A stretch of 64,000 nt of DNA from contig DAHWKJ010000074.1 in assembly GCA_027343695.1 (NCBI GenBank), forward strand, positions 1 through 64,000. The letters run 5' to 3'. This DNA is from Sulfobacillus sp. Lineage in GTDB: Bacteria > Bacillota > Sulfobacillia > Sulfobacillales > Sulfobacillaceae. The notes beneath the pieces are model-generated. The model saw nothing but the letters and a program-made list of their open reading frames with translations, had not been told where the DNA came from and did no database searches. Every line of letters starts with the position of its first letter. The first letter of the stretch is position 1. Positions 16,267 through 31,624 of the stretch are shown in pieces. The translations under genes were made by a program, and so were the position numbers.

Positions 16267-17022
16267 TTAGGCTCCAGAGCCTCCTCCTGAACTTCCCAAT
16301 CCTCCACTACTACCACCAGAAGATCCGCCCGAAGAACTCGAACCCCCACTACTACCACCGGAGGATCCCCCCGAAGAACTCGAACCTCCGCTACTACCAC
16401 CGGAGGATCCGCCAGAAGAACTCGAACCTCCGCTACTCGACGAGCCGCCTGAAGAGCTCGACGACGAGCTAGAGCCGACCATCTTGAGGATGCTCGCCTT
16501 CACCGAAGAATCAATGGCCATCGTGATAGTGGGAGACGCCATAGCCTTTTGTACGTCAGACTCCAGGGTTTTTTGAAACGTTGGACTTGACATCGCCAAC
16601 ATGACGGATTTTTCGAGAGCGGTTTGGCCCATCGGCGTCATAAGACTTTGTTGTAATTGGGTTGTGGAGATGCTTTCGGCGATCACGCGTTGCATCCGGG
16701 GCGTTTCCATTTCATCCCGAACCGCCTTTTGAATCTCCATTGACGGCATCGAGGAGGAACTCGAAGAGCCCCCGGAAGACGACCCTCCGCCCGAACTTGA
16801 ACCACCGGAGCTCGAACCTCCCGAACTGCTGGACCCGCCAGAGCTTGAACCACCGGAGCTTGAACCTCCCGAACCGCTGGACCCGCCAGAGCTACCGCCA
16901 CCATGACTGGTCGCGGTGCTCCCGTGTTGGGGGGAGGGCGCTCCCATCGTAAACGCACATCCACCAAGCATTGAGGCGAGCACACCGCCTGCCACCACTA
17001 ATGCGCCTATCTTCTGTACCAC
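16267..17022 (-). CDS. Ser/Gly-rich lipoprotein with a GerD-like helical core
   Basis: A 251-residue secreted lipoprotein. The signal peptide ends in the lipobox MLGGC, giving lipidation at Cys22. Residues ~40-91 and ~183-251 are low-complexity Ser/Gly linkers. Between them is a compact helical core (92-182) built of repeated units anchored on (S/T)P at residues 108, 130, 147 and 164, for example SSPTFQKTLESDVQKAM. The same proline-anchored helical repeat pattern is typical of the spore germination lipoprotein GerD, so a role in the spore inner membrane or germinosome is possible, but the match is by pattern only. The start is a GTG behind GGAGGTG. In B. subtilis an unrelated-looking lipoprotein, YerB, occupies the same place next to yerC. 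Confidence 0.7.
   Translation of the reverse strand: MVQKIGALVVAGGVLASMLGGCAFTMGAPSPQHGSTATSHGGGSSGGSSGSGGSSSGGSSSGGSSSSGGSSSGGSSSGGGSSSGGSSSSSSMPSMEIQKAVRDEMETPRMQRVIAESISTTQLQQSLMTPMGQTALEKSVMLAMSSPTFQKTLESDVQKAMASPTITMAIDSSVKASILKMVGSSSSSSSSGGSSSSGGSSSSGGSSGGSSGGSSSSGGSSGGSSGGSSSSGGSSGGSSGGLGSSGGGSGA
16322..16436. repeat. 42-bp tandem repeat in the lipoprotein C-terminal tail
   Basis: Two near-identical 42-base units (16322-16363 and 16364-16405) and a partial third unit encode a 14-residue Gly/Ser block. Degenerate extensions continue on both sides. The number of copies could vary between strains. Confidence 0.75.
16796..16891. repeat. 48-bp tandem repeat in the lipoprotein N-terminal linker
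   Basis: Two 48-base units, 16796-16843 and 16844-16891, differ at only a few positions and encode a 16-residue Ser/Gly block just after the lipidated cysteine. Confidence 0.75.
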
Positions 17023-17403: not shown

Positions 17404-18669
17404 TTAGGAGTCACGGTGTTCCAAGGCAATATCCTGGCGATATTGCGTGCCCGGTGCATCAATTTGGCTCATAACCTGATACGCTTGGCGTCTAGCGTTC
17501 GAAACATCGGGTCCAACGCCTACCACCGTTAAGATCCTTCCTCCATTACCTTCTAAAACGCCATCAACTAACCGGGTAGCTCCTTGAAACACTAAACCGT
17601 CTAGATTTTGGGGAATATGAAGCGGTTGTCCTCCTGTGGTAGGATTCGGATAACGCTCATCGGCCAGTACCACCGCGACCGCAGCCTTACCGAAATGGTC
17701 GGCGATCCGGGGTAGCCTGCCTTGGGCTAGTTGCATCCACAGTGCTCCCCAATCTTGTTCCACCATGGGGACGATAACCTCCGTTTCAGGATCCCCCATC
17801 CGGACATTAAACTCGAGAACTTGGGGACCGCTGGCGGTCAGCATTAGTCCTACATAAAGGACCCCTCGGTACAGCATTCGCTCATCACGAAGAAATTGCA
17901 TGACCGGGTCTAGGATTTCTTTATTGATCCGATCCTTGGTTTCGGGGTCGAGGCCCGGGACCGGCCCAAATGCCCCCATGCCGCCGGTATTAGGCGCATC
18001 AGACCGCGCGTTGACTCGTTTATAATCGCGGGTCAACGGCAACCAGGCATACTCGTGACCGTTGGTAAGGACGTGCACCGAAATTTCCTCACCAATCAGG
18101 CACTCTTCCCACAGAATCCCTTCGTCAAAGAGTTCAGGTCGTTCCGTCCACGATTCCGCCACATGCCACGCGGCTTCTCTCGAGTCCACGATCACCACCC
18201 CCTTGCCGCCGGCAAGGCCGCTCTGTTTCATCACATGAGGCCACATGGTTTCCTCCTCAATCCAGGCTTGCAATTGAGCCGGGGTGCGCGCCATCTGTGC
18301 CCGGGCAGTCGGAATATTGTAGCGTCGCATCACTTCCTTAGCGTAGGTTTTACTGCCTTCCAAAGCGGCCGCAGCTTGACTCGGTCCCACAACCCAATGC
18401 CCCTGACTTCTGAGCGCATCGGCCAATCCAGCGACCAGGGGCGCCTCAGGCCCTATAATCACGAGGAGCGGCTCCCGCTTGGCACACCAACTGATCAGTT
18501 CTGGGAGATTCTGATACGCAATGCATTCGGCAAGACCGGCAATCCCGGGATTACCCGGTGCCGCATAGACTTTGCTAAAGTGCTTAGATTCGGTAAGACT
18601 ATAGACCAGAGCGTGTTCTCGGCTCCCCTGGCCCACCACTAAGGCATGTTGCGGTCGCTGCTGATCCAT
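17404..18669 (-). CDS. purD: Phosphoribosylamine-glycine ligase
   Basis: A 421-residue ATP-grasp enzyme joining glycine to phosphoribosylamine to give GAR, step 2 of IMP synthesis. The N-terminus has the nucleotide-binding-like GQGSREHALVYSL, the ATP-grasp part shows KQSGLAGGKGVVI and the metal-site region FNVRMGDPETEVI. It is the last gene of the operon, nine bases after purH, with GGGGGT before the ATG. Length is normal. Confidence 0.97.
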   Translation of the reverse strand: MDQQRPQHALVVGQGSREHALVYSLTESKHFSKVYAAPGNPGIAGLAECIAYQNLPELISWCAKREPLLVIIGPEAPLVAGLADALRSQGHWVVGPSQAAAALEGSKTYAKEVMRRYNIPTARAQMARTPAQLQAWIEEETMWPHVMKQSGLAGGKGVVIVDSREAAWHVAESWTERPELFDEGILWEECLIGEEISVHVLTNGHEYAWLPLTRDYKRVNARSDAPNTGGMGAFGPVPGLDPETKDRINKEILDPVMQFLRDERMLYRGVLYVGLMLTASGPQVLEFNVRMGDPETEVIVPMVEQDWGALWMQLAQGRLPRIADHFGKAAVAVVLADERYPNPTTGGQPLHIPQNLDGLVFQGATRLVDGVLEGNGGRILTVVGVGPDVSNARRQAYQVMSQIDAPGTQYRQDIALEHRDS

Positions 18670-18678
18670 GGGTACCCC

Positions 18679-20196
18679 CTAATGACGAAAATGACGTTCA
18701 TGAGTGAAGAATAAGGGAATGTGGCCTTGATTCGCTCGATCGATGGACTCTTGGTCCCGTTGAGACCCGCCCGGTTGTATCACCAAACCGATCCCTGCTT
18801 GACTCGCGAGCTCCATCACATCGCCAAACGGAAAGAAGGCGTCGGAAGCCAAAACCGCGCCGCGGGCATGCTCGCCGGCCCGCTCGATGGCTTCTCGTGC
18901 AGCATCAACCCGATTGGTTTGCCCCGAGCCTATGCCTCGAGTTACGCCGCCCGCTGCCAGTACGATAGCGTTTGACTTGGCCCAAGCCACGGTGGTCCAC
19001 GCCAATTCGATATCGGTCAGATAGGACGCAATGTCGACAGCCGGACCTGCCACCTGTTCGAATTGAGACGGCACCGCGATCAGTTGGTCCTGACTCTGAA
19101 CGATCACGCCGCCGTCAATGGCCCGGATCTCCCATGGTTTCCAGGAGTGTGCCGGCATTTCTAACACGCGAAGGTTCTTTTTAGATTTAAGTACCTCCAA
19201 GGCTGCGGGATCGTAACCCGGCGCCAGTATGACTTCCAGAAAGATCTCGCGTAGGGCCTCGGCTGCCTCTTTGGAGACTTCCCTATTAAAGGCTACGATC
19301 CCGCCAAAAATGGAGATCGGGTCGGCTGCATGTGCCGCCTCCAAGGCCAACAGCGCCGTCTTGCCGATCGCGACGGCCGCTGGGTTTTGATGTTTAATCA
19401 CGGCCACGCCACAATCTTTTAATGCACTGACCACGCCCCAAGCCGCATCCGCGTCGGCGAGATTGTTATACGAGAGTTCCTTACCTTGCCATTGCCGGGC
19501 TCCAGCAAAACCCGATCCCAACTTGACAGGATAGAACGCGCCCGTTTGATGCGGATTCTCTCCATAGCGGAGGGCATCTCGTCGGATTCCGGACACCACC
19601 CAATCCGCGTCCAAAGGAAAGTGTTGGCTAAAGGTGAGCGCAATGGCGGCATCGTATGCCGCCACATGCTTAAAAGCATAAGCGGCCCAGCGCAATCGAT
19701 CGGTTTCCGTCACCTTGGCCCAATCGCTACCCATTAGCTCTGGATACTGCTGCGGCTCGACCAAGACCACCACGTGGGCATAATTTTTAGCAGCCGCACG
19801 AATCAAAGACACCCCACCCACATCGATTTCTTCGACGAGGGATGCGGTCGGCGTAGTTGCCGTCACTTCTTGCGCGCGCTCTCGAAACGGGTAGAGATTC
19901 ACCACAACCGCGACAATGTTTCGAGAGCCTAGCTGTTCCACATCTTCTTGATCCGTGGGAGTCCGTCGACTTAAGAGACCCGCATAGATGACGGGATGTA
20001 ATGTTTTCACGCGACCATCCAAGACTTCATCAAAGCCTGTCAGATCTTCCAATGCGGTGGCCGTAATCCCGTGTTCGACCAAATGCCGATAAGTTCCACC
20101 ACTTGCTAAGATGCCAATCCCCTGCTCATTAAACCACCGGGCCAATTCCACGCTCCCCGCCTTATCGCTTACACTAAATAAAGCCCACGCATCCAT
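18679..20196 (-). CDS. purH: Bifunctional AICAR transformylase / IMP cyclohydrolase
   Basis: A 505-residue fusion enzyme for the last two steps to IMP. The N-terminal MGS-like domain (WALFSVSDKAG, GGTYRHL, KTLHPVIYAGLL) is the cyclohydrolase. The remainder is the formyltransferase, with the catalytic Lys-His in VIKHQNPAAVA; the family norm here is KHxNPCG, so the Cys-Gly pair is replaced by Ala-Ala, a tolerated but notable variation. The ATG follows a strong AAGGAGG site that lies inside the end of purN. Confidence 0.96.
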   Translation of the reverse strand: MDAWALFSVSDKAGSVELARWFNEQGIGILASGGTYRHLVEHGITATALEDLTGFDEVLDGRVKTLHPVIYAGLLSRRTPTDQEDVEQLGSRNIVAVVVNLYPFRERAQEVTATTPTASLVEEIDVGGVSLIRAAAKNYAHVVVLVEPQQYPELMGSDWAKVTETDRLRWAAYAFKHVAAYDAAIALTFSQHFPLDADWVVSGIRRDALRYGENPHQTGAFYPVKLGSGFAGARQWQGKELSYNNLADADAAWGVVSALKDCGVAVIKHQNPAAVAIGKTALLALEAAHAADPISIFGGIVAFNREVSKEAAEALREIFLEVILAPGYDPAALEVLKSKKNLRVLEMPAHSWKPWEIRAIDGGVIVQSQDQLIAVPSQFEQVAGPAVDIASYLTDIELAWTTVAWAKSNAIVLAAGGVTRGIGSGQTNRVDAAREAIERAGEHARGAVLASDAFFPFGDVMELASQAGIGLVIQPGGSQRDQESIDRANQGHIPLFFTHERHFRH

Positions 20197-20801
20197 GATT
20201 CGACCTCCTTATGAGATAAATCCCAGATCACTCGGCCATCGACACCGAGGTGTACCCACCCCCGTTCCAGTGCCCAAACGACTTGTGGATACAACCGATG
20301 CTCTGCCATATGAATCTTGGATTCCAAGGCCTCCTGGCTTTCGCCAGGAGGGATCGGTACCGGCTGTTGCATGATAATGGGACCGGTATCTTGACCCTCG
20401 TCGACGAAGTGAATGGTCACCCCCGTCCAGCGCACTCCGTGCCGATAGGCCTGGTCAAGCGCGTGCATCCCCGGAAAAGCCGGCAATAGCGAAGGATGTA
20501 CATTCACGATTCGGCCACGATAGGCCGCCACCGTCTCTGAGGTCAGCCAGCGCATATATCCGGCTAGTGCGATGGCTTCAATGTGGTGGGCGTCTAAAAT
20601 CTTGCACAGTGCCTCATCGTAACGCTCCCGGTTCCGAATCGTCTTCGAATCGAGAACGACCGCCAACACCCCATAGCGCTCGGCAATCCCCAGAGCTGGA
20701 ACCTCAGCCCGATGTGAAACCACTAAAGACACTGGGACATTGGCTCGGAGCATTGCGTCAAGGTTACTCCCGGTGCCTCCGACCAATACCGCCCACCTCA
20801 T
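20169..20801 (-). CDS. purN: Phosphoribosylglycinamide formyltransferase
   Basis: A 210-residue folate-dependent GAR transformylase (step 3). Visible signatures are VGGTGSNLDAML at the phosphate-binding end, the Asn/His region IVNVHPSLLPAFPG and the catalytic Asp region HFVDEGQDTGPII. Its ATG overlaps the purM stop by ATGA. The last nine codons run over the start of purH, a 28-base overlap that is unusual for this pair and makes the protein a little longer than average. Confidence 0.95.
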   Translation of the reverse strand: MRWAVLVGGTGSNLDAMLRANVPVSLVVSHRAEVPALGIAERYGVLAVVLDSKTIRNRERYDEALCKILDAHHIEAIALAGYMRWLTSETVAAYRGRIVNVHPSLLPAFPGMHALDQAYRHGVRWTGVTIHFVDEGQDTGPIIMQQPVPIPPGESQEALESKIHMAEHRLYPQVVWALERGWVHLGVDGRVIWDLSHKEVESWMRGLYLV

Positions 20802-21805
20802 ACCAACACCACACCCGGCTGTTCCACCACTTCACCGACATCAAAGGCTTGGAGACCCGTTTGATGGAGCAAATCTAACGCCGATTGCGCCTCGCCGGCG
20901 GGGATGACCACCATGAATCCAATGCCCATGTTAAAGGTCCGAAACATCTCGGCTTCAGTCACCTGTCCCAACGACCCAAACCAAGAGAAGAGTTCAGGGA
21001 TTGGCCAAGAGTCACGGATAATGCGCGCCCCTTGACCCGGCGCTAAGGTGCGAGGCAAGTTTTCTAGAATCCCGCCCCCGGTGATGTGGGCTAATCCCCG
21101 CACCGAATGCGATTCCCAAAGCCGCCGAATGGCTTGGACATAGATAACCGTTGGCGCCAAGAGACATTCGCCCAATGTCTTGTCCTGGCACTGAGGATAT
21201 ACCTGGTCCCAGGCCAATCCATGGTCCGCTATAATACGATGCAGCAACGCATATCCATTCGAATGAAATCCGGAGGATGCCACCCCGAGAATCCGATCTC
21301 CGGGAACCGGAGGCTCCCATCGCTTGACTTGACGCCCCACTACAAATCCGGCCAGATCGTAGACCCCTCGGCTATACAGGGCGGGCATTTCTGCGGTTTC
21401 TCCCCCCAGCAATGCGCAATTCGCCTGGCGACAGCCTTCCCCGATACCTTGCACGAGGCTGGCAATGAGCGACGGGTCCAAATATCCTACGGCAATATAA
21501 TCGAGAAAAAACAGCGGCTCACCACCGCTCGCTAAAATATCATTCACGTTCATGGCCACCAAATCGATGCCCACGGTGTCATGCCGATCCAACGCTTGCG
21601 CCACCAACAGCTTCGAGCCCACGCCATCGGCGCCTGCCAATAGGGTCCCGGCATCGTCCCACCGAAATGCCCCCGAAAAAGATCCAATGCCCCCCATCAC
21701 TTCCGGTCGATGCGTGCTTTCCGCAATCGCTTTAATCCGGTTGACCGCTTCGTTCCCCCTCGTGATGTCCACTCCTGCGTCCCGGTAGGTCAAATGTTTA
21801 GGCAC
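20798..21805 (-). CDS. purM: Phosphoribosylformylglycinamidine cyclo-ligase
   Basis: A 335-residue AIR synthetase (step 5). It opens with LTYRDAGVDITRGNEAV, and has GSFSGAF and the nucleotide-binding LLAGADGVGSKL; GGGILENLPRTL lies near the C-terminus. I set the start at a GTG (21805) eight bases after AAGGAGG and overlapping the purF stop by 8 bases; this removes a 36-residue non-conserved extension that would overlap purF. Confidence 0.96.
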   Translation of the reverse strand: MPKHLTYRDAGVDITRGNEAVNRIKAIAESTHRPEVMGGIGSFSGAFRWDDAGTLLAGADGVGSKLLVAQALDRHDTVGIDLVAMNVNDILASGGEPLFFLDYIAVGYLDPSLIASLVQGIGEGCRQANCALLGGETAEMPALYSRGVYDLAGFVVGRQVKRWEPPVPGDRILGVASSGFHSNGYALLHRIIADHGLAWDQVYPQCQDKTLGECLLAPTVIYVQAIRRLWESHSVRGLAHITGGGILENLPRTLAPGQGARIIRDSWPIPELFSWFGSLGQVTEAEMFRTFNMGIGFMVVIPAGEAQSALDLLHQTGLQAFDVGEVVEQPGVVLV

Positions 21806-23198
21806 GGCTCGGGGCCTCCTTTTCTTGGGGAGGAATCGCCACGGGATAGCCCGCACCAAAGCAGGCCATACACCAGCCATTTTGCGGCCCAAGTCCTGCG
21901 GAGAGACCCTCAATCGACAGATATGCGAGCGTGTCGGCTCCCACGGATTTCCTGAGAGCCTCCAGCGACATGGTGCGTGCCGCTAATTCTCCCGCACGGG
22001 AGGTATCAATGCCATAATGGCAGGGATCGGTGTACGGAGGTGATGCGATACGCATATGGACCTCTTTGGCCCCCGCTTTACGCAACAGCGATACCAAGCG
22101 ACGTGATGTGGTTCCCCGCACCAGACTGTCATCGATTAAAATCACGCGTTTACCTGCCACCACTTCCCGCACCGCCGACAGTTTCAGTTGCACGCTAGAT
22201 TCTCGACCGGTCTGGGTAGGGGAAATGAACGTCCGGGCAATATACCGATTTTTCACCAACCCAAAATCAAATGGGATCCCCGAGGCTTGCGCGTAGCCCA
22301 TAGCGGCTGGCAAGCTAGAATCCGGAACCCCAACCACAACGTCCGCTTCCACTGGCGATTCTTCTGCGAGACGTCGTCCTAGTTGACGCCGACTCAAATG
22401 TGCACTTTGCCCATCGATTTGGGAATCGGGCCGCGCGAAATACACGGATTCGAAAGCACACACCGCCCTTTTAGGAAGACTCTCGGCTGAAATATAAGAG
22501 CGAAAGCTGACTCCCTGGTCGCGGATACAAATCAGCTCCGCTGGGTCCACGTCCCTTAGCCACTCGGCTTGCACGGTATCCAAAGCACAGGTTTCCGATG
22601 CCAGCATCGTCCCCCCTTCCGGCGATCGTCCTAAGACCAGCGGCCGTATCCCATGAGGATCGCGTGCGGCATAAAGCCCTTCATTCGATAAGACCGCGAA
22701 GGCAAAACCCCCTTCTAGTTTCGGCAAACTCTCCAAGAGCGCCTCTTCTAACCCAGTCTGAGAACTTTTCGCCAATAAATGCGCCAAGATTTCACTGTCG
22801 GAAGTCCCCTGAAAAATAGAGCCTTCACGTGCTAACTTGGCCCGTAGTTCGCTAGCGTTCACCAGATTCCCGTTATGCGCCAATGCTAACGGCCCGAACC
22901 GAGTCTGCATCAACAGCGGTTGCGCGTTGACCAACGAGGATTCGCCGGTCGTGGAATATCGGACGTGACCCAGGGCGGCCTCGCCTTCCCGTAGGATTTC
23001 CTCTTCAACCTGCAGCGCTTCCGTCACAAGACCCATACCCTTATGCACGGTAATATTGCCGCGAGAAAGCACCGCGATACCCGCGCTTTCTTGCCCTCGA
23101 TGTTGCAAGCTAAAAGTCCCCCAATACGCCTTTAGTGCAGCTTGAGGATGTCCCCACACGGCAAAGATCCCACATTCTTCATGAAGTTCACCCCACAC
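21798..23198 (-). CDS. purF: Amidophosphoribosyltransferase
   Basis: The 466-residue committed-step enzyme making phosphoribosylamine from PRPP and glutamine. The catalytic cysteine lies in ECGIFAVWGH; with the GTG start at 23198 it becomes Cys9 after an eight-residue propeptide that must be cleaved. This GTG sits seven bases after GGAGGTGAG, which is why I prefer it to an upstream GTG at 23219. The PRPP loop is VILIDDSLVRGTT. The cysteine-bearing C-terminal segment NGWCMACFGAGYP fits the Bacillus-type Fe-S-containing, oxygen-sensitive class. It overlaps purL by 11 bases. Confidence 0.96.
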   Translation of the reverse strand: MWGELHEECGIFAVWGHPQAALKAYWGTFSLQHRGQESAGIAVLSRGNITVHKGMGLVTEALQVEEEILREGEAALGHVRYSTTGESSLVNAQPLLMQTRFGPLALAHNGNLVNASELRAKLAREGSIFQGTSDSEILAHLLAKSSQTGLEEALLESLPKLEGGFAFAVLSNEGLYAARDPHGIRPLVLGRSPEGGTMLASETCALDTVQAEWLRDVDPAELICIRDQGVSFRSYISAESLPKRAVCAFESVYFARPDSQIDGQSAHLSRRQLGRRLAEESPVEADVVVGVPDSSLPAAMGYAQASGIPFDFGLVKNRYIARTFISPTQTGRESSVQLKLSAVREVVAGKRVILIDDSLVRGTTSRRLVSLLRKAGAKEVHMRIASPPYTDPCHYGIDTSRAGELAARTMSLEALRKSVGADTLAYLSIEGLSAGLGPQNGWCMACFGAGYPVAIPPQEKEAPSRA

Positions 23199-25383
23199 GA
23201 TGGTACTCACCTCCCTCACGAAATGCTTGCCATAACGCCTGGAGTTCCCAGGTCACCGTGCGTCCCGCTTGGATCTTAATCTGGGGAGAATCCGTGGTTT
23301 CTCCGAGAATCGCTATCGTCATCCCTGCCCTCTTTGCACTGTGCTCCCAAGTCGCTTGACGGCTGGGGTCTAAAAACACCAGAAACTGTCCGGCTGTTTC
23401 GTTAAAGAGCTCCAGTGCGGCTCGATCCGAGCTCAGACGAAGGTCTGCCCCATATTCGGGAGAGGCACTCATCAACGCACGCGCCAATGCGACAAAGAGC
23501 CCGCCAATCCCCACACTACGACATGCGAGCAGCCCCACGGTGTCGGGATCACGAGCCCAATCCCCCATCAGTCGGAGCGCCTGGACCGTTCGATCCGGAA
23601 CAATTCGCGGGTAGGCACCGATTCGGCCTAACAATTCGGCTAACACACTGCCTCCCAACGAAAGCTCTTCGGGAGGGTTAAGCACCGCAATCTTTAGACC
23701 CTTGCCGGACGGCCTATCGGGTATCGGGGTTTCTGGATGCGGATGGCGCGCCACAACCCCAAGGGCTGCGGTGGGCCAAATTGCTTGGGAGTGAGTCTCG
23801 TTGTGTAAAGAGACGTTGCCCCCCGTCACGGGCACTCCAAAATCTTGCGCCGCTTGGGCGATTCCCCAGACTAAGCCTGCTACCCGCTGATATTCTTCAG
23901 GTTTATCGGGGTTTCCCCCGTTAATCCCATCGGTTAACCCCAGCGGCACCGATCCTTGGGTGGCGATGCGGCTCAACACATCAACCACGGCCCCATAGCC
24001 TCCCGCCACACTGTCCATCAGAGCCCATCGGGAAGGGGCGGCCACCGCAATCTGTAGGCCGTCAGCCCCCTCTCCGATGCGCAAGATCGCACTGTCATGT
24101 TGGGGTCCCCACACCGTACGTACCTGTATCATGGAATCATAACGCTGATAAATGGGCGAACGATCCTGACAATCCGGGTGACCTATGACGCGCAATCCCA
24201 AATCGTGGTCCAGCGTTAAGGGTACCGGAGCGGACTCGCCCACAGGCGGTTCCGTAAAGCGTTCCACAAAGTCGTCCGCCAGCACCTGGCGGGGACAGGA
24301 CGCGACCAGGACTTGGGTGGGCACATCCGCGAGTAGCTGTGTCTCGCAAACGATTCGGAGAAAGTCTCCAGGCATTACCCGGCCCACCTCCGCCACCGGC
24401 AGTGCGAAAGTCTCGATCGCGGACAGAGCCGCTTCCAAATTGGCTTCCGGGATAGAGAGCAACATGCGCTCTTGGGTTTCCGACAACATGATATCGTATG
24501 CGCTCATACCCGTTTCTCGACAGGGCACTGCTGCAACGTCTAAGCTCACGCCAACGTGTGAAGCATAGGCCAGTTCCGCCAATGCCGAGGTGAGCCCTGC
24601 GGCACCCAGATCCTGTACGGCATCCGCCAACCCTTCCCGAACAATGCGTAAGGTCGCTTCCATCAAGAGCTTGCCCATAAACGGATCGCCGACCTGAACC
24701 GTAGGACGCATGGCTTCAGTTTCGGTTCCAAAATCTTGTGACGCCAGAAGGCTCGCCCCATGAATTCCATCGCGCCCAGTGGCCTGACCCATTAAGAGGA
24801 GCACCGAACCTGGTTTGGCCCCATCGGCTCCGATATGTTGCAAATGAGGGAGCAGCCCCACGGCCAGCACGTTAACCAGAGGATTGGCATCGTAAAGCGC
24901 ACTATAACCAACGCTTCCCGTCACCGTAGGAATCCCAATCGCATTGCCATAGGCACCAATCCCTTCCACGATCCCTTGGCGTAAGGCTCGGGCTTTGTCG
25001 TTGGTGCCAAACTTGAGCACATCCGCCACAGCAATCGGTCGGGCCCCCATGGCAATGATATCCCGTAAAATGCCTCCCACTCCTGTGGCCGCCCCTTGCA
25101 CCGGCTCCACGTACGAAGGATGATTGTGACTCTCGATTTTGAAGGCCACATCGTAGTCCTGATTAAACAGCACCACACCGGCATTACCCCCTGGGCCTTG
25201 AACCACAAAGGGCCCCTGGTTAGGCAGCCAGGCCAAAAACGGCTTAGAATTCTTGTAACTGCAATGTTCGGACCACAAGGCTCCAAATAGGCCTAGTTCC
25301 AAATCGTTTGGGTTGCGGGACAAGAGTCGCTGGATCTCTTGATATTCACTTAGGGTCAGCCCCACCTCAGCATACGTTAGCAT
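23188..25383 (-). CDS. purL: FGAM synthase subunit PurL (small type)
   Basis: The 731-residue catalytic subunit of the three-part phosphoribosylformylglycinamidine synthase (step 4), working with PurQ and PurS. Visible family signatures include ALWSEHCSYKNSKPFL, KIESHNHPSYVEPVQGAATGVGG and the repeated AIR-synthase-like nucleotide sites (QDLGAAGL, VTGGNVSLHNE). It overlaps purQ by 7 bases. The length identifies the Gram-positive small form lacking a fused glutaminase. Confidence 0.97.
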   Translation of the reverse strand: MLTYAEVGLTLSEYQEIQRLLSRNPNDLELGLFGALWSEHCSYKNSKPFLAWLPNQGPFVVQGPGGNAGVVLFNQDYDVAFKIESHNHPSYVEPVQGAATGVGGILRDIIAMGARPIAVADVLKFGTNDKARALRQGIVEGIGAYGNAIGIPTVTGSVGYSALYDANPLVNVLAVGLLPHLQHIGADGAKPGSVLLLMGQATGRDGIHGASLLASQDFGTETEAMRPTVQVGDPFMGKLLMEATLRIVREGLADAVQDLGAAGLTSALAELAYASHVGVSLDVAAVPCRETGMSAYDIMLSETQERMLLSIPEANLEAALSAIETFALPVAEVGRVMPGDFLRIVCETQLLADVPTQVLVASCPRQVLADDFVERFTEPPVGESAPVPLTLDHDLGLRVIGHPDCQDRSPIYQRYDSMIQVRTVWGPQHDSAILRIGEGADGLQIAVAAPSRWALMDSVAGGYGAVVDVLSRIATQGSVPLGLTDGINGGNPDKPEEYQRVAGLVWGIAQAAQDFGVPVTGGNVSLHNETHSQAIWPTAALGVVARHPHPETPIPDRPSGKGLKIAVLNPPEELSLGGSVLAELLGRIGAYPRIVPDRTVQALRLMGDWARDPDTVGLLACRSVGIGGLFVALARALMSASPEYGADLRLSSDRAALELFNETAGQFLVFLDPSRQATWEHSAKRAGMTIAILGETTDSPQIKIQAGRTVTWELQALWQAFREGGEYHRVG

Positions 25384-26087
25384 CCATGCCCTCCTTTCTG
25401 TCCGAACCAGGCTTGGAGCAAACGCCGACCGTCCGCCGAGCCCAAATACTCCGCCATCGCACGCTCTGGGTGCGGCATTAACCCTACAACCGATCCTTGA
25501 GTGACTCCTGCGATATTCGCCACCGACCCGTTAGGATTCGTCAAGGGATGCACCACCCCATCCGGGTCGCTATATTGCAAAAACACCTGCCCTTGTTCAA
25601 AGAGCTCATGGAGTTTGCCATCCGACACCCGATAGGAGCCCTCGTGATGGGCAATCGGGAGGGCCAAACGGTCTCCGACCGAGAGTCCTTGAAATCCGCT
25701 TGGGACCGCCGTCACGCGGAGCGTCTCCAATCTGCAGACAAACTCCCCATGGGGATTAGGCAATAGCGCCCCGGGCAATAATCCTCTTTCGCAGAGAATC
25801 TGAAACCCATTGCAAATCCCTAACACGGGCATCCCGGCTGTGGCGGCTTCGCCCACGGCATCCATGATCGGTGCCGCCGCCGCTAAAGCGCCACTTCGGA
25901 GGTAGTCACCGTATGAAAAACCTCCTGGTAAAATCAGACGGTCTATCGCGGGAAGCTGTCTCAGACGGTAGTCCAATACCCGCGGGATTGCTCCCAGATC
26001 CATGATGGCTTGAATGGTGTCCTGGTCGCAGTTGGATCCTGGAAATACCACAATTCCGACGACCTGGCGGGTCTCCTCGAGGGTCAT
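25377..26087 (-). CDS. purQ: FGAM synthase glutaminase subunit PurQ
   Basis: A 236-residue class I glutamine amidotransferase supplying ammonia to PurL. The nucleophile is in GMPVLGICNGFQIL. The start of the fold reads VGIVVFPGSNCDQDT, and the His/Glu pair is in GLMPHPERAMAEYLGS. The ATG overlaps the purS stop by ATGA. Confidence 0.97.
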   Translation of the reverse strand: MTLEETRQVVGIVVFPGSNCDQDTIQAIMDLGAIPRVLDYRLRQLPAIDRLILPGGFSYGDYLRSGALAAAAPIMDAVGEAATAGMPVLGICNGFQILCERGLLPGALLPNPHGEFVCRLETLRVTAVPSGFQGLSVGDRLALPIAHHEGSYRVSDGKLHELFEQGQVFLQYSDPDGVVHPLTNPNGSVANIAGVTQGSVVGLMPHPERAMAEYLGSADGRRLLQAWFGQKGGHGC

Positions 26088-26335
26088 AAGGGCGTCACCG
26101 TCACGTCAAAGGCCTCCATCACCGGGTTGGCCAACAATCGACGCCCCATTTCATCTCCGATCGCCAGGGCGCGGACCTCGTCCTCCGCCTCAATCACCAC
26201 CTGAATCCATTTCCCGATCCGGACTTCTGTGGCCGCAAACTCCATCTGGTGTAGGACCTGGAGCGTGGCTTGTCCTGCCGGATCCAGGACTCCTTCCTTA
26301 AGACCGACGTGCAACCCCAATCGATAGGTTTTCAT
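26084..26335 (-). CDS. purS: FGAM synthase subunit PurS
   Basis: An 83-residue small subunit that bridges PurL and PurQ and helps channel ammonia. It shows the typical KTYRLGLHVGLKEGVLDPAG opening and an RIGKWIQVVIEAEDE strand segment. It overlaps both neighbours by four bases. Confidence 0.94.
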   Translation of the reverse strand: MKTYRLGLHVGLKEGVLDPAGQATLQVLHQMEFAATEVRIGKWIQVVIEAEDEVRALAIGDEMGRRLLANPVMEAFDVTVTPL

Positions 26336-27039
26336 CGGGACACAATCCGATCGTGGACTTCTTGATAGGCTTCCTCGACCGTCCCTAAGTCTTGACGAAA
26401 CCGATCCTTGTCCAATTTTTTACCGGTCTCTTTATCCCACAAACGACACGTGTCCGGAGAAATTTCGTCACCCAACTTCAAGACCCCCTCGTCCGTGATG
26501 CCGAATTCTAATTTGAAATCTACTAAGATTAGACCTCTCCCCTCCAGGTATGGCGACAACACTGCGTTCACCCCAAGGGCCTCGTCCTTTAATCGCGCCG
26601 TCAACTCTACACCGGCCAGGTTAAGCACCCGGATATGGTCGTCGTTGAGCAATGGATCGCCCAGATCATCGCTCTTGTAATACATTTCGACGACCGGGAA
26701 ATCCAGGATTGTCCCGTCTTCCAAGCCTGTGCGTTTTTGAAGCGATCCCGCCACCCGATTGCGCACCACTACTTCTAGGGGAACGATGCTTAGACGCTCC
26801 ACCAAGAGATGCCTAGGTTTAGGATCGTCAACGAAATGGGTCGGGATCCCGTGTTGACCGAGGAGTCGGAATAAGTGGGCCGAAAGGGACGCGTTGATAA
26901 GCCCCTTACCCGCAATTTGGCCGCGTTTTTGTCCGTTAAATGCCGTCGCGTCATCCTTAAATTCCACCAGTACTTGATTGGGATTCTGGGTTGCGAAAAC
27001 CTTTTTGGCTTTCCCTTCGTACAATAATTTCACGCTCAT
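26332..27039 (-). CDS. purC: SAICAR synthetase
   Basis: A 235-residue phosphoribosylaminoimidazole-succinocarboxamide synthase (step 7). It has KLLYEGKAKKVFAT at the N-terminus, EVVVRNRVAGSLQKRTG and the ATP/Mg segment LILVDFKLEFG followed by DEISPDTCRLWD. The ATG at 27039 follows GAGGAGG at six bases, next to the purB stop; an upstream in-frame extension of 44 residues overlaps purB and is not family-like. Confidence 0.97.
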   Translation of the reverse strand: MSVKLLYEGKAKKVFATQNPNQVLVEFKDDATAFNGQKRGQIAGKGLINASLSAHLFRLLGQHGIPTHFVDDPKPRHLLVERLSIVPLEVVVRNRVAGSLQKRTGLEDGTILDFPVVEMYYKSDDLGDPLLNDDHIRVLNLAGVELTARLKDEALGVNAVLSPYLEGRGLILVDFKLEFGITDEGVLKLGDEISPDTCRLWDKETGKKLDKDRFRQDLGTVEEAYQEVHDRIVSR

Positions 27040-27040
27040 A

Positions 27041-28351
27041 CTAAGCCTCCTCGGATTCGATGCCAATACGATCGTAAATTTCATCGACAGCGGCCAAGTA
27101 GGGCCCAATGTCGAAAAGTTGACTGAGTGCCCCGCCGGGTAACCTTTGGGCCACTTCGGAATCCTGTTCAAGTCGGAACCGGAAAGTTTGGGACGGATCC
27201 TTTAAGGCCGCCATGGCGTGGCCTTGTACCAACTTATAGGCCGCTTCCCGCGTCATGCCTTGTTCGACCAGGGCCAGTAAGACTTTTTGAGAAAACACTA
27301 GGCCCCCGGACAAGTGAATATTGTGCAACATCCGCTCGGGGTTGACGACGAGTCCATCGATGATGCGATGCATCTGCGTTAATAGGTAATCGGTCAAAAT
27401 CGTCACATCGGGGAGCATCACACGTTCGGCCGAGGAATGAGAAATATCGCGTTCATGCCACAAAGGAACGTCTTCCAAAGCCGGGACGACATAGCCGCGC
27501 AAAATGCGCGCCAGCCCGGAGATTTGTTCCGCCTTTACAGGATTGCGTTTATGCGGCATCGCTGACGAACCTCGTTGGCCGACCGCAAAAGGCTCCTCGA
27601 CCTCCCCGACCTCACTCCTTTGAAGATGGCGAATTTCCGTCGCCATCTTGTCCAATGTGGTGCCGATCAAGGCGAGCACCATGACCACTTCGGCATGACG
27701 GTCGCGTTGCAGTACTTGTGTCGAAAGGGGGGCGGGTTCAAGACCGAGAGCATCGCCCACATGTTGTTCCACCGCGGTTGGGATATTGGCATAGTTCCCG
27801 ACGGCGCCCGAGATTTTCATCACCCGCATCCGGCGACTCGCAGCCTCCAGCCTTTCCATATTGCGACCCAATTCGAGCCACCACAAAAGAGCCTTCAATC
27901 CGAAGCTGGTCGGTTCGGCATGCATCCCATGAGTCCGTCCCATGATCGGCGTCATCTTATGCGTCAACGCAATGTGGCGCACCGCCTTCCGTAAGGCGAC
28001 CAAATCTTGATGAATAATGACAAGCGCTTCATTCAACAACGAAGATAGCGCGGTATCCACCACATCCGTCGAAGTTAGGCCGTAATGGATGTACTTCGCA
28101 TCTTCGGGGTCGACGCTTTCACCCACCGCGCTTAAAAAAGCCAGCACATCGTGATGATATTGGGCCTCCCAATATTCCACACGTTCAGGGCTCACGGTAG
28201 CGTTGCGAAGACGTGACGACACGCCTTCAGGTATTTTCCCCAAGCGTTCCCACGCCTGTACCGCCAATATTTCCACCTCTAGCCATCGATCATAGCGATG
28301 TTGTTCAGACCACAAGTCTCGCATCACGGCCCGGCTGTAGCGTTCAATCAT
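27041..28351 (-). CDS. purB: Adenylosuccinate lyase
   Basis: A 436-residue fumarase/aspartase-superfamily enzyme acting twice in purine synthesis, on SAICAR and on adenylosuccinate. The signature GSSAMPHKRNPVKAEQ carries the flexible catalytic loop; the catalytic histidines are expected in GRTHGMHAEPT and near KYIHYGLTSTDVVD. It is the first gene of the operon in this window, with GGAGGGACACT before the ATG. No purE or purK is present upstream, where Bacillus has them; the next gene is divergent. Confidence 0.97.
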   Translation of the reverse strand: MIERYSRAVMRDLWSEQHRYDRWLEVEILAVQAWERLGKIPEGVSSRLRNATVSPERVEYWEAQYHHDVLAFLSAVGESVDPEDAKYIHYGLTSTDVVDTALSSLLNEALVIIHQDLVALRKAVRHIALTHKMTPIMGRTHGMHAEPTSFGLKALLWWLELGRNMERLEAASRRMRVMKISGAVGNYANIPTAVEQHVGDALGLEPAPLSTQVLQRDRHAEVVMVLALIGTTLDKMATEIRHLQRSEVGEVEEPFAVGQRGSSAMPHKRNPVKAEQISGLARILRGYVVPALEDVPLWHERDISHSSAERVMLPDVTILTDYLLTQMHRIIDGLVVNPERMLHNIHLSGGLVFSQKVLLALVEQGMTREAAYKLVQGHAMAALKDPSQTFRFRLEQDSEVAQRLPGGALSQLFDIGPYLAAVDEIYDRIGIESEEA

Positions 28352-28373
28352 AGTGTCCCTCCAAATTTAAAAT

Positions 28374-28409
28374 CCGAACATTATGTACCAATCTTACACC
28401 AATCGTTCG
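28374..28409. promoter_or_regulatory. PurR-box-like inverted repeat upstream of purB
   Basis: CCGAACATTA (28374-28383) on the plus strand faces the inverted copy CGAACGATT (complement of 28401-28409), which is preceded on the minus strand by AAACA. These two AT-flanked CGAA(C) half-sites, in opposite orientation with about 17-19 bases between them, match the arrangement of B. subtilis PurR boxes. A minus-strand promoter candidate (TTCACG, 18 bases, TAAGAT) overlaps the same stretch. Repression relieved by PRPP would be expected if a PurR homologue exists, which cannot be seen in this window. Confidence 0.5.
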
Positions 28410-28543
28410 TGTTTCGTGAAGTCTCCGGTGCAATTAGTATGGACCTTTTGCTGAAACCCTACGCTGGCCCATTTTCCCCTATTCGCCGTCGTCACCGCGT
28501 GATAGTGTTAAATCGAATAGGCTCTCATTGAGGAGGATGCTGA

Positions 28544-29101
28544 TTGTCGGTGAACGCTCGTGCTAATCCCGTTTTGTTACTCATCGATGTCCAAAAGACA
28601 TGGAGCGACCCCGCTTGGGGACCACGCAATAACGAATCCGCGGAAGACAACATTGCGGCCTTGCTCCATTGGTGGCGCCGCCACGACCTCCCAAGAATCA
28701 TCGTACAGCATCATTCAAAGTCTCCCGCTTCGCGACTGGCCATGGGCCAACCCGGATGCGCCTTGCGGAGTGAAGTGACACCCGAACCCGGCGAACTACT
28801 CCTGACCAAATCAGTCAACAGTGCCTTCATCGGAACCAATCTCGAAGATGTTTTAATCGCCAACGGATGGACCGATGTCGTAGTCGTCGGACTCACCACA
28901 GTCCATTGCTGCAGCACCACGATTCGGATGGGCGCTAACCTGGGGTTTAAAATGTCTGCGGTAGCGGATGCCATGGCAACCTTTGACGCAAAAACCCTAC
29001 AAGGCCAGACAGTGCCCGCAGAAATCATGCATCAGGTAGAGCTGGCCGCGTTGAACGATGAATTTGCCACCATTCTAAACACTAAAGACCTCATCGGTTA
29101 G
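28544..29101 (+). CDS. Isochorismatase-family cysteine hydrolase
   Basis: A 185-residue alpha/beta cysteine hydrolase. The triad is visible as Asp15 (LLLIDVQKTW), Lys89 (LLLTKSVNSAF) and Cys123 (TTVHCCSTT). The family includes isochorismatases, nicotinamidases and ureido/biuret amidohydrolases; the absence of a distinct metal site and a short middle region suggest a general amidohydrolase rather than a nicotinamidase. Translation starts at TTG behind GAGGAGG. It is divergent from purB, so its promoter shares about 190 bases with the purine operon control region, and it is convergent with guaA. Confidence 0.85.
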   Translation: MSVNARANPVLLLIDVQKTWSDPAWGPRNNESAEDNIAALLHWWRRHDLPRIIVQHHSKSPASRLAMGQPGCALRSEVTPEPGELLLTKSVNSAFIGTNLEDVLIANGWTDVVVVGLTTVHCCSTTIRMGANLGFKMSAVADAMATFDAKTLQGQTVPAEIMHQVELAALNDEFATILNTKDLIG

Positions 29102-29130: not shown

Positions 29131-30648
29131 CTACTCCCATTCGATGGTTCCCGGTGGTTTAGATGTAATGTCATACACCACCCGATTGACGCCGGGAACC
29201 TCGCCGATTACGCGGGCGGCCATCCGTTCTAATAAGTCAGGGGAGAGTCGTACCCAGTCGGCCGTCATTCCATCTTGGCTTTCCACGGCTCGGATAACAA
29301 TGGGTTGTCCATACGTCCGCCCATCGCCCATAACCCCAACCGAGCGGATATCGAGTAGAACCGCAAACGCTTGCCAAATTTCTTTCTCTAATCCTGCTCG
29401 TCGTACCTCTTCACGAATAATTGCATCGGCCGCTCTTACCATCGCGAGCCCCTCCTGGGTCACTTCTCCCACGATGCGAACCGCGAGCCCCGGCCCCGGA
29501 AACGGCTGCCGCCAGACGATCGAATCGGGAAGACCGAGCGCCGTACCCAGTTCCCTGACTTCGTCCTTAAAAAACCAACGTAACGGTTCCACAATGCTAA
29601 AATCCGCGTCGTCGGGCATCCCGCCTACATTATGATGCGATTTGATGGTAGAGCCTTTCCCGCCACCCGATTCGATTACATCGGGATACACAGTGCCTTG
29701 GATCAAATGCGCCACCGACCCGATCGATTCGCGGGCCCGTTCAAACGCACGGATAAATTCACGCCCGATAATCTTACGTTTCGCCTCCGGATCGCGAATC
29801 CCGTGCAACGCATCCAAAAATTGCTGCTCGGCATATTCGACTCGCAAATCTAGATCGGGAAACGCCGCGAGTACTTCTTCGATTTCTCCTTCACGCATGA
29901 GTCCATGGTCGATGAGTACGGCGGTCAACCGATCTCCTAACGCCCGATGTGCCAAGGCAGCTGCAACCGCCGAGTCGACTCCCCCCGACAGGGCCACCAA
30001 CGCCCGCCCTGTCCCCACTTCTGCTTGAATTTGTCGGACGCCTTCTTGTACCCGGTCCTTGGGATCCCAATCGGGAGTCAAGTGCGCAATGTCATAAAGA
30101 AAATTTCGTAGCATGACCTGTCCCTCAGGGGTATGGTGCACCTCGGGATGATACTGGACCGCCCATAAGTTACGTTGCGGGTTTGCCATCGCTGCGATCG
30201 GCGTCGTAGCTGTCGTGGCCATTACTTGAAAGCCTTTCGGGACAGCGAGCACCACGTCCCCGTGACTCATCCACACCGTCGAACTTTGGGGAATACCATG
30301 GAACAGAGGGCTTTCTTCCGTGCGTTGCATGAGCGTGCGCCCATATTCCCGTTTTGTGGCGGGTTCCACGTGCCCTCCTAAGAGCCGCGTCATAAGCTGC
30401 ATCCCGTAGCAAATTCCAAGAACCGGGATCCCCTGTGTCAACAGCGCGGCGTCCATCGACGGTGCGTCGGCAGCAAACACGCTGGAAGGTCCGCCGGATA
30501 AGATCAACGCATCCGGTTTCTTCGCCAAAATCTCCGCGGCAGGCGTATCTCCTGGCAACACTTCACAAAAAATTCGAGCCTCTCGGACGCGACGCGCAAT
30601 CAGGTGATTATATTGGGCGCCAAAGTCTAACACGATCACGTAACTCAT
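29131..30648 (-). CDS. guaA: GMP synthase (glutamine-hydrolysing)
   Basis: A 505-residue enzyme converting XMP to GMP. The glutaminase domain has the nucleophile in PVLGICYGMQLM and the His/Glu in VQYHPEVHHT. The ATP pyrophosphatase P-loop is ALSGGVDSAV, and the C-terminal dimerisation domain ends in DITSKPPGTIEWE, the family's hallmark terminus. It lies three bases after hpt and is probably cotranscribed with it. Confidence 0.97.
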   Translation of the reverse strand: MSYVIVLDFGAQYNHLIARRVREARIFCEVLPGDTPAAEILAKKPDALILSGGPSSVFAADAPSMDAALLTQGIPVLGICYGMQLMTRLLGGHVEPATKREYGRTLMQRTEESPLFHGIPQSSTVWMSHGDVVLAVPKGFQVMATTATTPIAAMANPQRNLWAVQYHPEVHHTPEGQVMLRNFLYDIAHLTPDWDPKDRVQEGVRQIQAEVGTGRALVALSGGVDSAVAAALAHRALGDRLTAVLIDHGLMREGEIEEVLAAFPDLDLRVEYAEQQFLDALHGIRDPEAKRKIIGREFIRAFERARESIGSVAHLIQGTVYPDVIESGGGKGSTIKSHHNVGGMPDDADFSIVEPLRWFFKDEVRELGTALGLPDSIVWRQPFPGPGLAVRIVGEVTQEGLAMVRAADAIIREEVRRAGLEKEIWQAFAVLLDIRSVGVMGDGRTYGQPIVIRAVESQDGMTADWVRLSPDLLERMAARVIGEVPGVNRVVYDITSKPPGTIEWE

Positions 30649-30651
30649 CGG

Positions 30652-31188
30652 TTACTCCCTTATCAGCCGACAGACATCAGGCAAATTCCGATATCTCTCG
30701 TCCACGTCGAGGCCATATCCTACAACAAATTCGTCGGGAATTTCAAAACCTTTATAATGCAAAGGTACCGCCACTTGGCGCCGACTCGGCTTGTCTAATA
30801 GCGAGCATATTTTAACACTGGCGGCCCCGCGAGAACGCATATGCCCATAAATGTAGTTCAGCGTCAGCCCGGTATCGACCACGTCCTCCACCACTAACAC
30901 ATGACGCCCATCTACACCTTGCTCCAAATCCTTTAAGATGCGCACCACCCCAGAAGATTTCGTAGCGGCTCCATACGACGACATGGCCATGAAGTCGATC
31001 GAAATAGGTAAATCGATACAACGGATGAGGTCTGCCATAAAAACAAAAGATCCTTTGAGGATCCCAACCAACAGCAGTTCTTTGCCCGCATAATCTAGGG
31101 TTATGCGCTTCCCCAAGTTATCTACTCGGGCCTGAATCTCTTTATGGAGCAATAAGGGTTCCAGTCGTTCTCCGGGATGGGTTACCAA
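30652..31188 (-). CDS. hpt: Hypoxanthine-guanine phosphoribosyltransferase
   Basis: A 178-residue purine salvage enzyme using PRPP to make IMP or GMP. It has LLLVGILKGSFVFMADL, a flexible loop near SSYGAATKSSGVV, and the PRPP motif VLVVEDVVDTGLTL. The frame remains open upstream, but the TTG at 31188 follows AGGAGG at nine bases and gives the family's normal N-terminal length; the longer version would overlap the MerR gene. It is operonic with guaA. Confidence 0.92.
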   Translation of the reverse strand: MVTHPGERLEPLLLHKEIQARVDNLGKRITLDYAGKELLLVGILKGSFVFMADLIRCIDLPISIDFMAMSSYGAATKSSGVVRILKDLEQGVDGRHVLVVEDVVDTGLTLNYIYGHMRSRGAASVKICSLLDKPSRRQVAVPLHYKGFEIPDEFVVGYGLDVDERYRNLPDVCRLIRE

Positions 31189-31210
31189 TGTACATGGCCT
31201 CCTAGGTAAA

Positions 31211-31624
31211 TTAGTGAGGATTTTCATCATCGCGGTGGATCCGACGCAAGATATCCGCCCGGTTAGTGAGCGGATAGAGCGACTCTCGGGTCACCGCATC
31301 TCTTCTGGCGATTAATTTGCCTTGAAAATAACTCTCGGCATCCCGCTCCACTTCCTCAGTCCGGCCCCGTTCCATGGCCGCATCTTCATGCTCCAAGTAA
31401 TGACGGATTTCTTTGAGCGAAATGCCGTTATCTAGTAGTTCTTTGATCCGCTTCAGACGTTCAATATCATGTTGCGAATAGAGCCGTTGATTTCCGCTCG
31501 TCCGCTTAGGTTGCAACAGCTGTAGCGTTTCATAATAGCGAATACGTCGATCCGTAAGGCCTGTGGCTTCCTTCACCACACGAATCGAGTGGAGGGTCTG
31601 GTTGGGCTCTCGCACGGTTCTCAT
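31211..31624 (-). CDS. MerR-family regulator, GlnR/TnrA-like
   Basis: A 137-residue regulator. A winged HTH of the MerR type occupies the first ~85 residues: VVKEATGLTDRRIRYYETL, then a wing of the form KRTSGNQRLYSQHDIERLKRI. The RQIRYYE-like recognition helix and the short C-terminal part, without cysteines for metal binding, resemble the GlnR/TnrA nitrogen-regulator branch more than metal sensors. No glnA is nearby; downstream are hpt and guaA, and GMP synthesis consumes glutamine, so a nitrogen link is conceivable. The function is inferred, not shown. Confidence 0.75.
   Translation of the reverse strand: MRTVREPNQTLHSIRVVKEATGLTDRRIRYYETLQLLQPKRTSGNQRLYSQHDIERLKRIKELLDNGISLKEIRHYLEHEDAAMERGRTEEVERDAESYFQGKLIARRDAVTRESLYPLTNRADILRRIHRDDENPH

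Follow-up and report, generated by a model that had tools for sequence, protein, structure and literature searches.

According to PMC8789054, the PurBoxes of Bacillus subtilis are 14-bp inverted repeats with a CGAA core and a spacer of 16 or 17 bp, one PurR dimer binds to each PurBox, and PRPP and ppGpp serve as the inducer and anti-inducer, respectively. The stretch analyzed here, 64,000 nucleotides of Sulfobacillus sp. DNA (hereafter the window), comes from a member of the Sulfobacillus group and carries a pur operon. It shares with the B. subtilis purEKBCSQLFMNHD operon described in PMC8789054 the regulator family, the inverted 14-bp CGAA boxes with a spacer of 16–17 bp, and the purine operon as target. 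On the other hand, the B. subtilis boxes are located just upstream of the −35 element (PMC8789054), whereas in the window a putative −10 element lies between the boxes. Unlike that of B. subtilis, the window operon starts with purB, purEK are located elsewhere, the genome's own purR is not preceded by a box pair, and the window gave no Rfam match.

We consider, with a probability of roughly 85%, that PurR controls the pur operon through an operator at positions 28370–28414, where bound PurR would block the core promoter and PRPP would release it. The system itself is known; new are its promoter geometry and, as described below, a permease target, and the internal −10 and the permease target were absent from the original prediction. 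Our literature search found no paper joining Sulfobacillus and PurR; older PurBox studies were probably outside its scope, and the layout may be described in other literature.

PurBox pair upstream of the pur operon

The genes purB-C-S-Q-L-F-M-N-H-D lie on one strand, and each matches one or more NCBIfam models above cut-off (Table 1); purE and purK are side by side on another contig. The B. subtilis pur leader carries a guanine riboswitch. No Rfam family was found in the window at the gathering score, and RNA control of the operon was therefore rejected. Downstream of purD, positions 16267–17022 hold an open frame for a low-complexity protein with Gly/Ser repeats. At 29131–31624, three consecutive genes are guaA, one resembling hpt, and one encoding a MerR-family regulator (PF13411), and the MerR/hpt/guaA order is found upstream of purB in 10 of the 14 relatives defined below.

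Table 1 Coordinates of the pur genes, the predicted operator and promoter, and the divergent gene in the window
Feature	Coordinates	Strand	Basis or remark
purD, final gene of the pur series	17404..18669	-	TIGR00877 over cut-off
purH	18679..20196	-	NF002049 over cut-off; TIGR00355 below its cut-off
purN	20169..20801	-	TIGR00639 over cut-off
purM, true start probably internal	20798..21913	-	TIGR00878 over cut-off, from residue 41
purF	21798..23219	-	TIGR01134 over cut-off
purL	23188..25383	-	NF002290 and TIGR01736 over cut-off
purQ	25377..26087	-	NF002957 and TIGR01737 over cut-off
purS	26084..26335	-	TIGR00302 over cut-off
purC, start codon chosen by reading	26332..27039	-	TIGR00081 over cut-off
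purB, adenylosuccinate lyase, first operon gene	27041..28351	-	TIGR00928 over cut-off
Ribosome-binding sequence of purB, GGAGGG	28357..28362	-	Read from the sequence
PurBox proximal to purB, AAATCCGAACATTA	28370..28383	+	14 bp
Spacer separating both PurBoxes	28384..28400		17 bp
Putative −10 of the purB promoter, TAAGAT, within the spacer	28391..28396	-	TAnnAT at that offset in 15/15; inferred
PurBox distal to purB, inverted, AAACACGAACGATT	28401..28414	-	14 bp
Putative weak −35, TCACGA, 17 nt from −10	28414..28419	-	First T invariant, 15/15
Alternative putative −35, TTCACG, if 18 nt from −10	28415-28420	-	
Isochorismatase-family gene, divergent	28544..29101	+	PF00857

The region in front of purB shows all features of the PurBox definition, namely two inverted 14-bp CGAA boxes, a spacer within 16–17 bp, and AT-rich flanks, and the proximal box is 18 bp from the purB start codon. 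The consensus of a single PurBox is AWWWCCGAACWWT, and the proximal box is the sole perfect match to it among the 12 matches in the window at up to two mismatches. Such loose single boxes are not enriched in the window (12 observed, 24.9 expected). With one mismatch allowed, the bare core CGAAC-N25-GTTCG matches twice in the window (3.1 expected), the purB site being the only exact match, and by itself it would not be convincing.

The fuller pair CCGAACRWT-N19-AWYGTTCGG matches the purB site with one mismatch, and at that threshold, for core spacings of N27 or N26, it did not occur in 6 Mb of sequence simulated from the window's first-order base statistics. In the own genome, the fuller pair was found at nine places at up to three mismatches, and the eight others all have exactly three (reversed-pattern control, four places). 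No second place below three mismatches was found at the 27-base core spacing in this assembly, which is 83.6% complete, may still hold weak sites or sites of other spacings, and may lack some of the genes concerned. Two of the six own-genome places with the exact core besides the purB site, L004 and L007, were rejected as they lie within open frames; the L004 place is also one of the eight with three mismatches.

A palindrome that arose by chance and has no function is hardly credible. With one mismatch allowed, the window should indeed contain the bare core about three times, but the boxes are conserved against unconserved flanks, a second target carries the same pair, and in one family member the pair is absent together with PurR. 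The boxes, their 17-bp spacing, and their conservation in relatives bear out the original prediction of a PurR-type operator before the purine operon, and its Bacillus-like box arrangement is confirmed exactly, with a spacer of precisely 17 bp.

Conservation of the predicted operator and co-occurrence with PurR

The genome encodes a PurR with a full-length match to TIGR01743 (273.7 bits; curated cut-off, 258.7), composed of the PuR_N winged-helix (PF09182) and phosphoribosyltransferase (PF00156) domains. The B. subtilis-type purR that had been predicted is thus present. Its best PDB matches are 1p4a and 1o57 (E = 1.2e-63), and the closest solved structures are 1p4a/7rmw and 1o57 (pur operon repressor). 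The PRPP loop, DDFMKAGG, is retained and identical to that of 1p4a. In the alignment, Phe takes the position of B. subtilis Tyr102, and Phe at this position also occurs in other homologues according to PMC8789054. By reading, the purR gene is preceded by ispE-like and nucleotidyltransferase-like genes and followed by an ilvA-like gene.

As relatives, we took, from the best 80 of 275, the 14 closest purB loci belonging to named records; they comprise ten metagenome-assembled genomes (MAGs) called Bacillota bacterium, plus four records under the names S. benefaciens, S. thermotolerans, S. acidophilus, and S. harzensis. With spacings of 20–33 scanned, CGAA-N27-TTCG was found before purB in all 14 loci, 50–87 bp off, in agreement with the predicted conservation. 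Over 105 row pairs, identity is 86% in the boxes, whose CGAA and TTCG served to register the rows, which makes these eight bases alike by construction; it is 100% at the TA..AT positions, 44% in the remaining spacer, 29% in the 45 bp upstream, and 35% in the 14 bp downstream.

PurR was found in 13 of the 14 genomes, over the cut-off in 10, and was not found in G003, a MAG with the operator. In the class, 83 of 121 members have PurR. The pair at up to one mismatch occurs in 23 class members, 22 of them with PurR, and in one of the 38 without PurR (Fisher p = 0.001, kinship of the genomes ignored); G138, G191, G216, and G246 have the coordinates of G001, G002, G008, and G010, and the pattern searches of the 14 genomes and of the class overlap accordingly. 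The boxes are kept before purine genes in genomes with PurR and absent in those without it, with the exceptions of G003 and G190. In G242, a member of the same family (97% complete), neither PurR nor a pair before purB was found. In G234, purB lies outside the operon and has no pair; there, the pair is found in front of purC. The gene divergent from this purC operator (L264, 1603–2556) reads by eye like a nucleoside hydrolase; if it is one, a salvage gene of G234 would face purC across the same operator. Other pairs are placed differently: those of the order members G208 and G230 lie only at −324 and −159 from purB, and none of the query genes was found alongside the pair sites of G154, G190, G203, and G232. 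These comparisons extend the predicted PurR regulation to relatives of the acidophile Sulfobacillus with a comparative test.

Putative −10 element between the PurBoxes

In all 15 purB sites (the window and the 14 relatives), TAnnAT is invariant at offset 14, inside the spacer, and 17 nt upstream lies a hexamer that always opens with T, e.g., TCGACA in L014, L019, and L020; L019 is the locus of Sulfobacillus thermotolerans Kr1, CP019454. Among further family members with boxes, TAnnAT was read at offset 14 in G179, G200, G224, and G238 and was not found there in G163, which keeps the boxes. With a home-made promoter score, used throughout the comparison across sites, the offset-14 hexamer ranks top in 13 of the 15 purB sites and second in L012 and L016. 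TAnnAT is best read as the −10 element, and the order at purB as −35, box, −10, box, and purB. A consensus scan of 28300–28600 found no sigma-70 promoter because the −35 is weak. The predicted overlap of the operator with a candidate promoter is consequently supported by comparison with the relatives and not by the consensus scan.

The B. subtilis pur layout, with boxes just upstream of −35, is not what we see at purB, where the putative −10 lies within the spacer. The position of the boxes relative to −35 is a feature of the B. subtilis promoter and not of the PurBox definition. The locus might still be an ordinary Bacillus-type operator, with the promoter outside the boxes and the conserved TAnnAT as a part of the operator read by PurR; the weak −35 and the empty consensus scan would fit this alternative, which we consider unlikely. 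In 14 of the 15 sites, the purB-proximal box ends only 10–21 bp from the start codon (47 bp in L014), and this gap is too short for a promoter downstream. Comparison with other pur operators also speaks against it. Of 66 outgroup purB loci (L024–L089), 36 have no pair at up to two mismatches, and the 30 that do were compared for promoters. These sites, from Alicyclobacillus, Bacillales, and other Firmicutes, share the pair pattern, but their best-scoring −10 is in every case at offset 54–69, downstream of both boxes, which agrees with the B. subtilis layout in PMC8789054, and TAnnAT at offsets 13–15 is missing from 30/30 (two have it at 16). With the −10 downstream in the outgroup and, by our reading, inside the pair in the Sulfobacillus group, promoter and operator would have moved together.

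The core-promoter reading suggests the following mechanism. PurR would bind both inverted PurBoxes and, as these bracket the −10, would cover the −10 and the transcription start, which is predicted some 30 nt upstream of purB, and thereby block RNA polymerase at the core promoter. A rise in PRPP would release PurR and allow transcription of the operon. PurR binding, repression, and the response to PRPP, perhaps also to ppGpp, at the predicted operator are what we infer from sequence comparison. PurR-type proteins can act as activators, as in Lactococcus lactis, which also has a TIGR01743 protein according to our profile-search control. Activation of the pur operon by PurR in that manner is very improbable here, as boxes bracketing the −10 should leave no space for polymerase beside bound PurR.

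A draw of 29 purB loci from the phylum (L174–L202) yielded a perfect pair in L189 and, before purE, a clear or weaker pair (1–3 mismatches) in L174, L175, L176, and L197; the rest have none at up to three mismatches. The purE-headed pur operons of L204 and L209 (class) and of L189 and L197 (phylum) retain the Bacillus layout (−10 at offset 69–71). Upstream of purE in L175 and L176, which belong to the same class, TTGACA directly adjoins the second box of a weak pair (three mismatches); this may represent an intermediate layout. The site at 1501 in L223 and L224, from two genomes of a single class family, is a pair followed downstream by TTGACA...TACACT with the −10 at offset 69; it stands before none of the query genes and is a candidate PurR target in the Bacillus layout.

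NCS1 permease gene as a predicted second target

A search of the 14 genomes with the pair pattern, in which places with AT-rich spacers were examined, revealed a second predicted target, located between a gene for an NCS1 cytosine/purine permease (PF02133) and a divergent phosphomannomutase-like gene. Pairs at L139, L142, L143, and L144, alongside which no purine gene was recognized, were taken as chance. The permease orthologue is present in 10 of the 14 genomes (at least 64% identity, the query's own genome counted), and all ten have the pair in front of it at up to two mismatches, eight with N27 and two with N28. Neither the orthologue nor its neighbor gene was found in the window's 83.6%-complete assembly; both are present in the genus mate G138, which is the same genome as G001.

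TAnnAT directed to the permease gene was found at offsets 13–15 in nine of the ten sites, and these offsets rank top in promoter scoring in seven. The position of the hexamer varies from offset 13 to 15, and four sites have TTGACT or TTGACC as the corresponding −35 hexamer, 17–18 nt away, which further argues against TAnnAT as a mere part of the operator. In distant permease genes, the best −10 is at offset 13 in L206 and L207 (class), L212 (order), and L214 and L219 (family) and at offset 10 in L205. The stretches scanned in 16 distant permease paralogues and a second copy in G013 have no pair at up to three mismatches; the paralogue L156 has one at four mismatches far upstream, and the placing in L159, a partial stretch, is imprecise.

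B. subtilis pbuG (Table 1 of PMC8789054) is comparable as a purine-uptake gene in the PurR regulon. Unlike pbuG, the target in the Sulfobacillus group encodes a permease of the NCS1 type (PF02133), and its divergent neighbor is a phosphomannomutase-like gene. We regard it as likely that PurR of the Sulfobacillus group acts on the core promoter through boxes clamped around the −10, that the pur operon took over the promoter layout of the NCS1 permease gene, which is seen beyond the family, with a shift of about 55 bp, near five helix turns, and that the recognizable regulon narrowed to purine synthesis and one permease. One repressor and one operator would then be found at two promoter positions, and the strength and the PRPP and ppGpp responses of upstream-bound (Bacillus) and core-promoter-bound PurR become comparable.

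Extent of the regulon and the divergent gene

The original prediction had also placed boxes before purE/K; no pair was found in front of these genes in this genome. As for guaB, glyA, and folD, for which the motif had likewise been proposed, the genome-wide search at the 27-base core spacing gave no place below three mismatches besides the purB site in the incomplete assembly. At up to three mismatches, no pair precedes purR or purE in L001, L090, and L145, and the purR loci of the own genome (L001) and 13 relatives show none below three mismatches, with one at three in L118, L122, and L125.

Co-regulation of the divergent isochorismatase-family gene, which had been suggested, finds no support. 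That the operator also serves this gene is quite unlikely: its start lies 129 bp past the distal box, in head-to-head orientation relative to purB, but the operator is kept in 14/14 relatives and the gene lies beside purB only in L010, the nearest relative (2/15 with the window; in L012, this neighbor check covered only 740 bp of upstream sequence). No TAnnAT was found at the matching offset on the gene's own strand.

In a genome of the same class (L211, site at 1501), a pair stands just upstream of purR. The purR gene of that genome may be self-regulated, unlike that of the window's genome.
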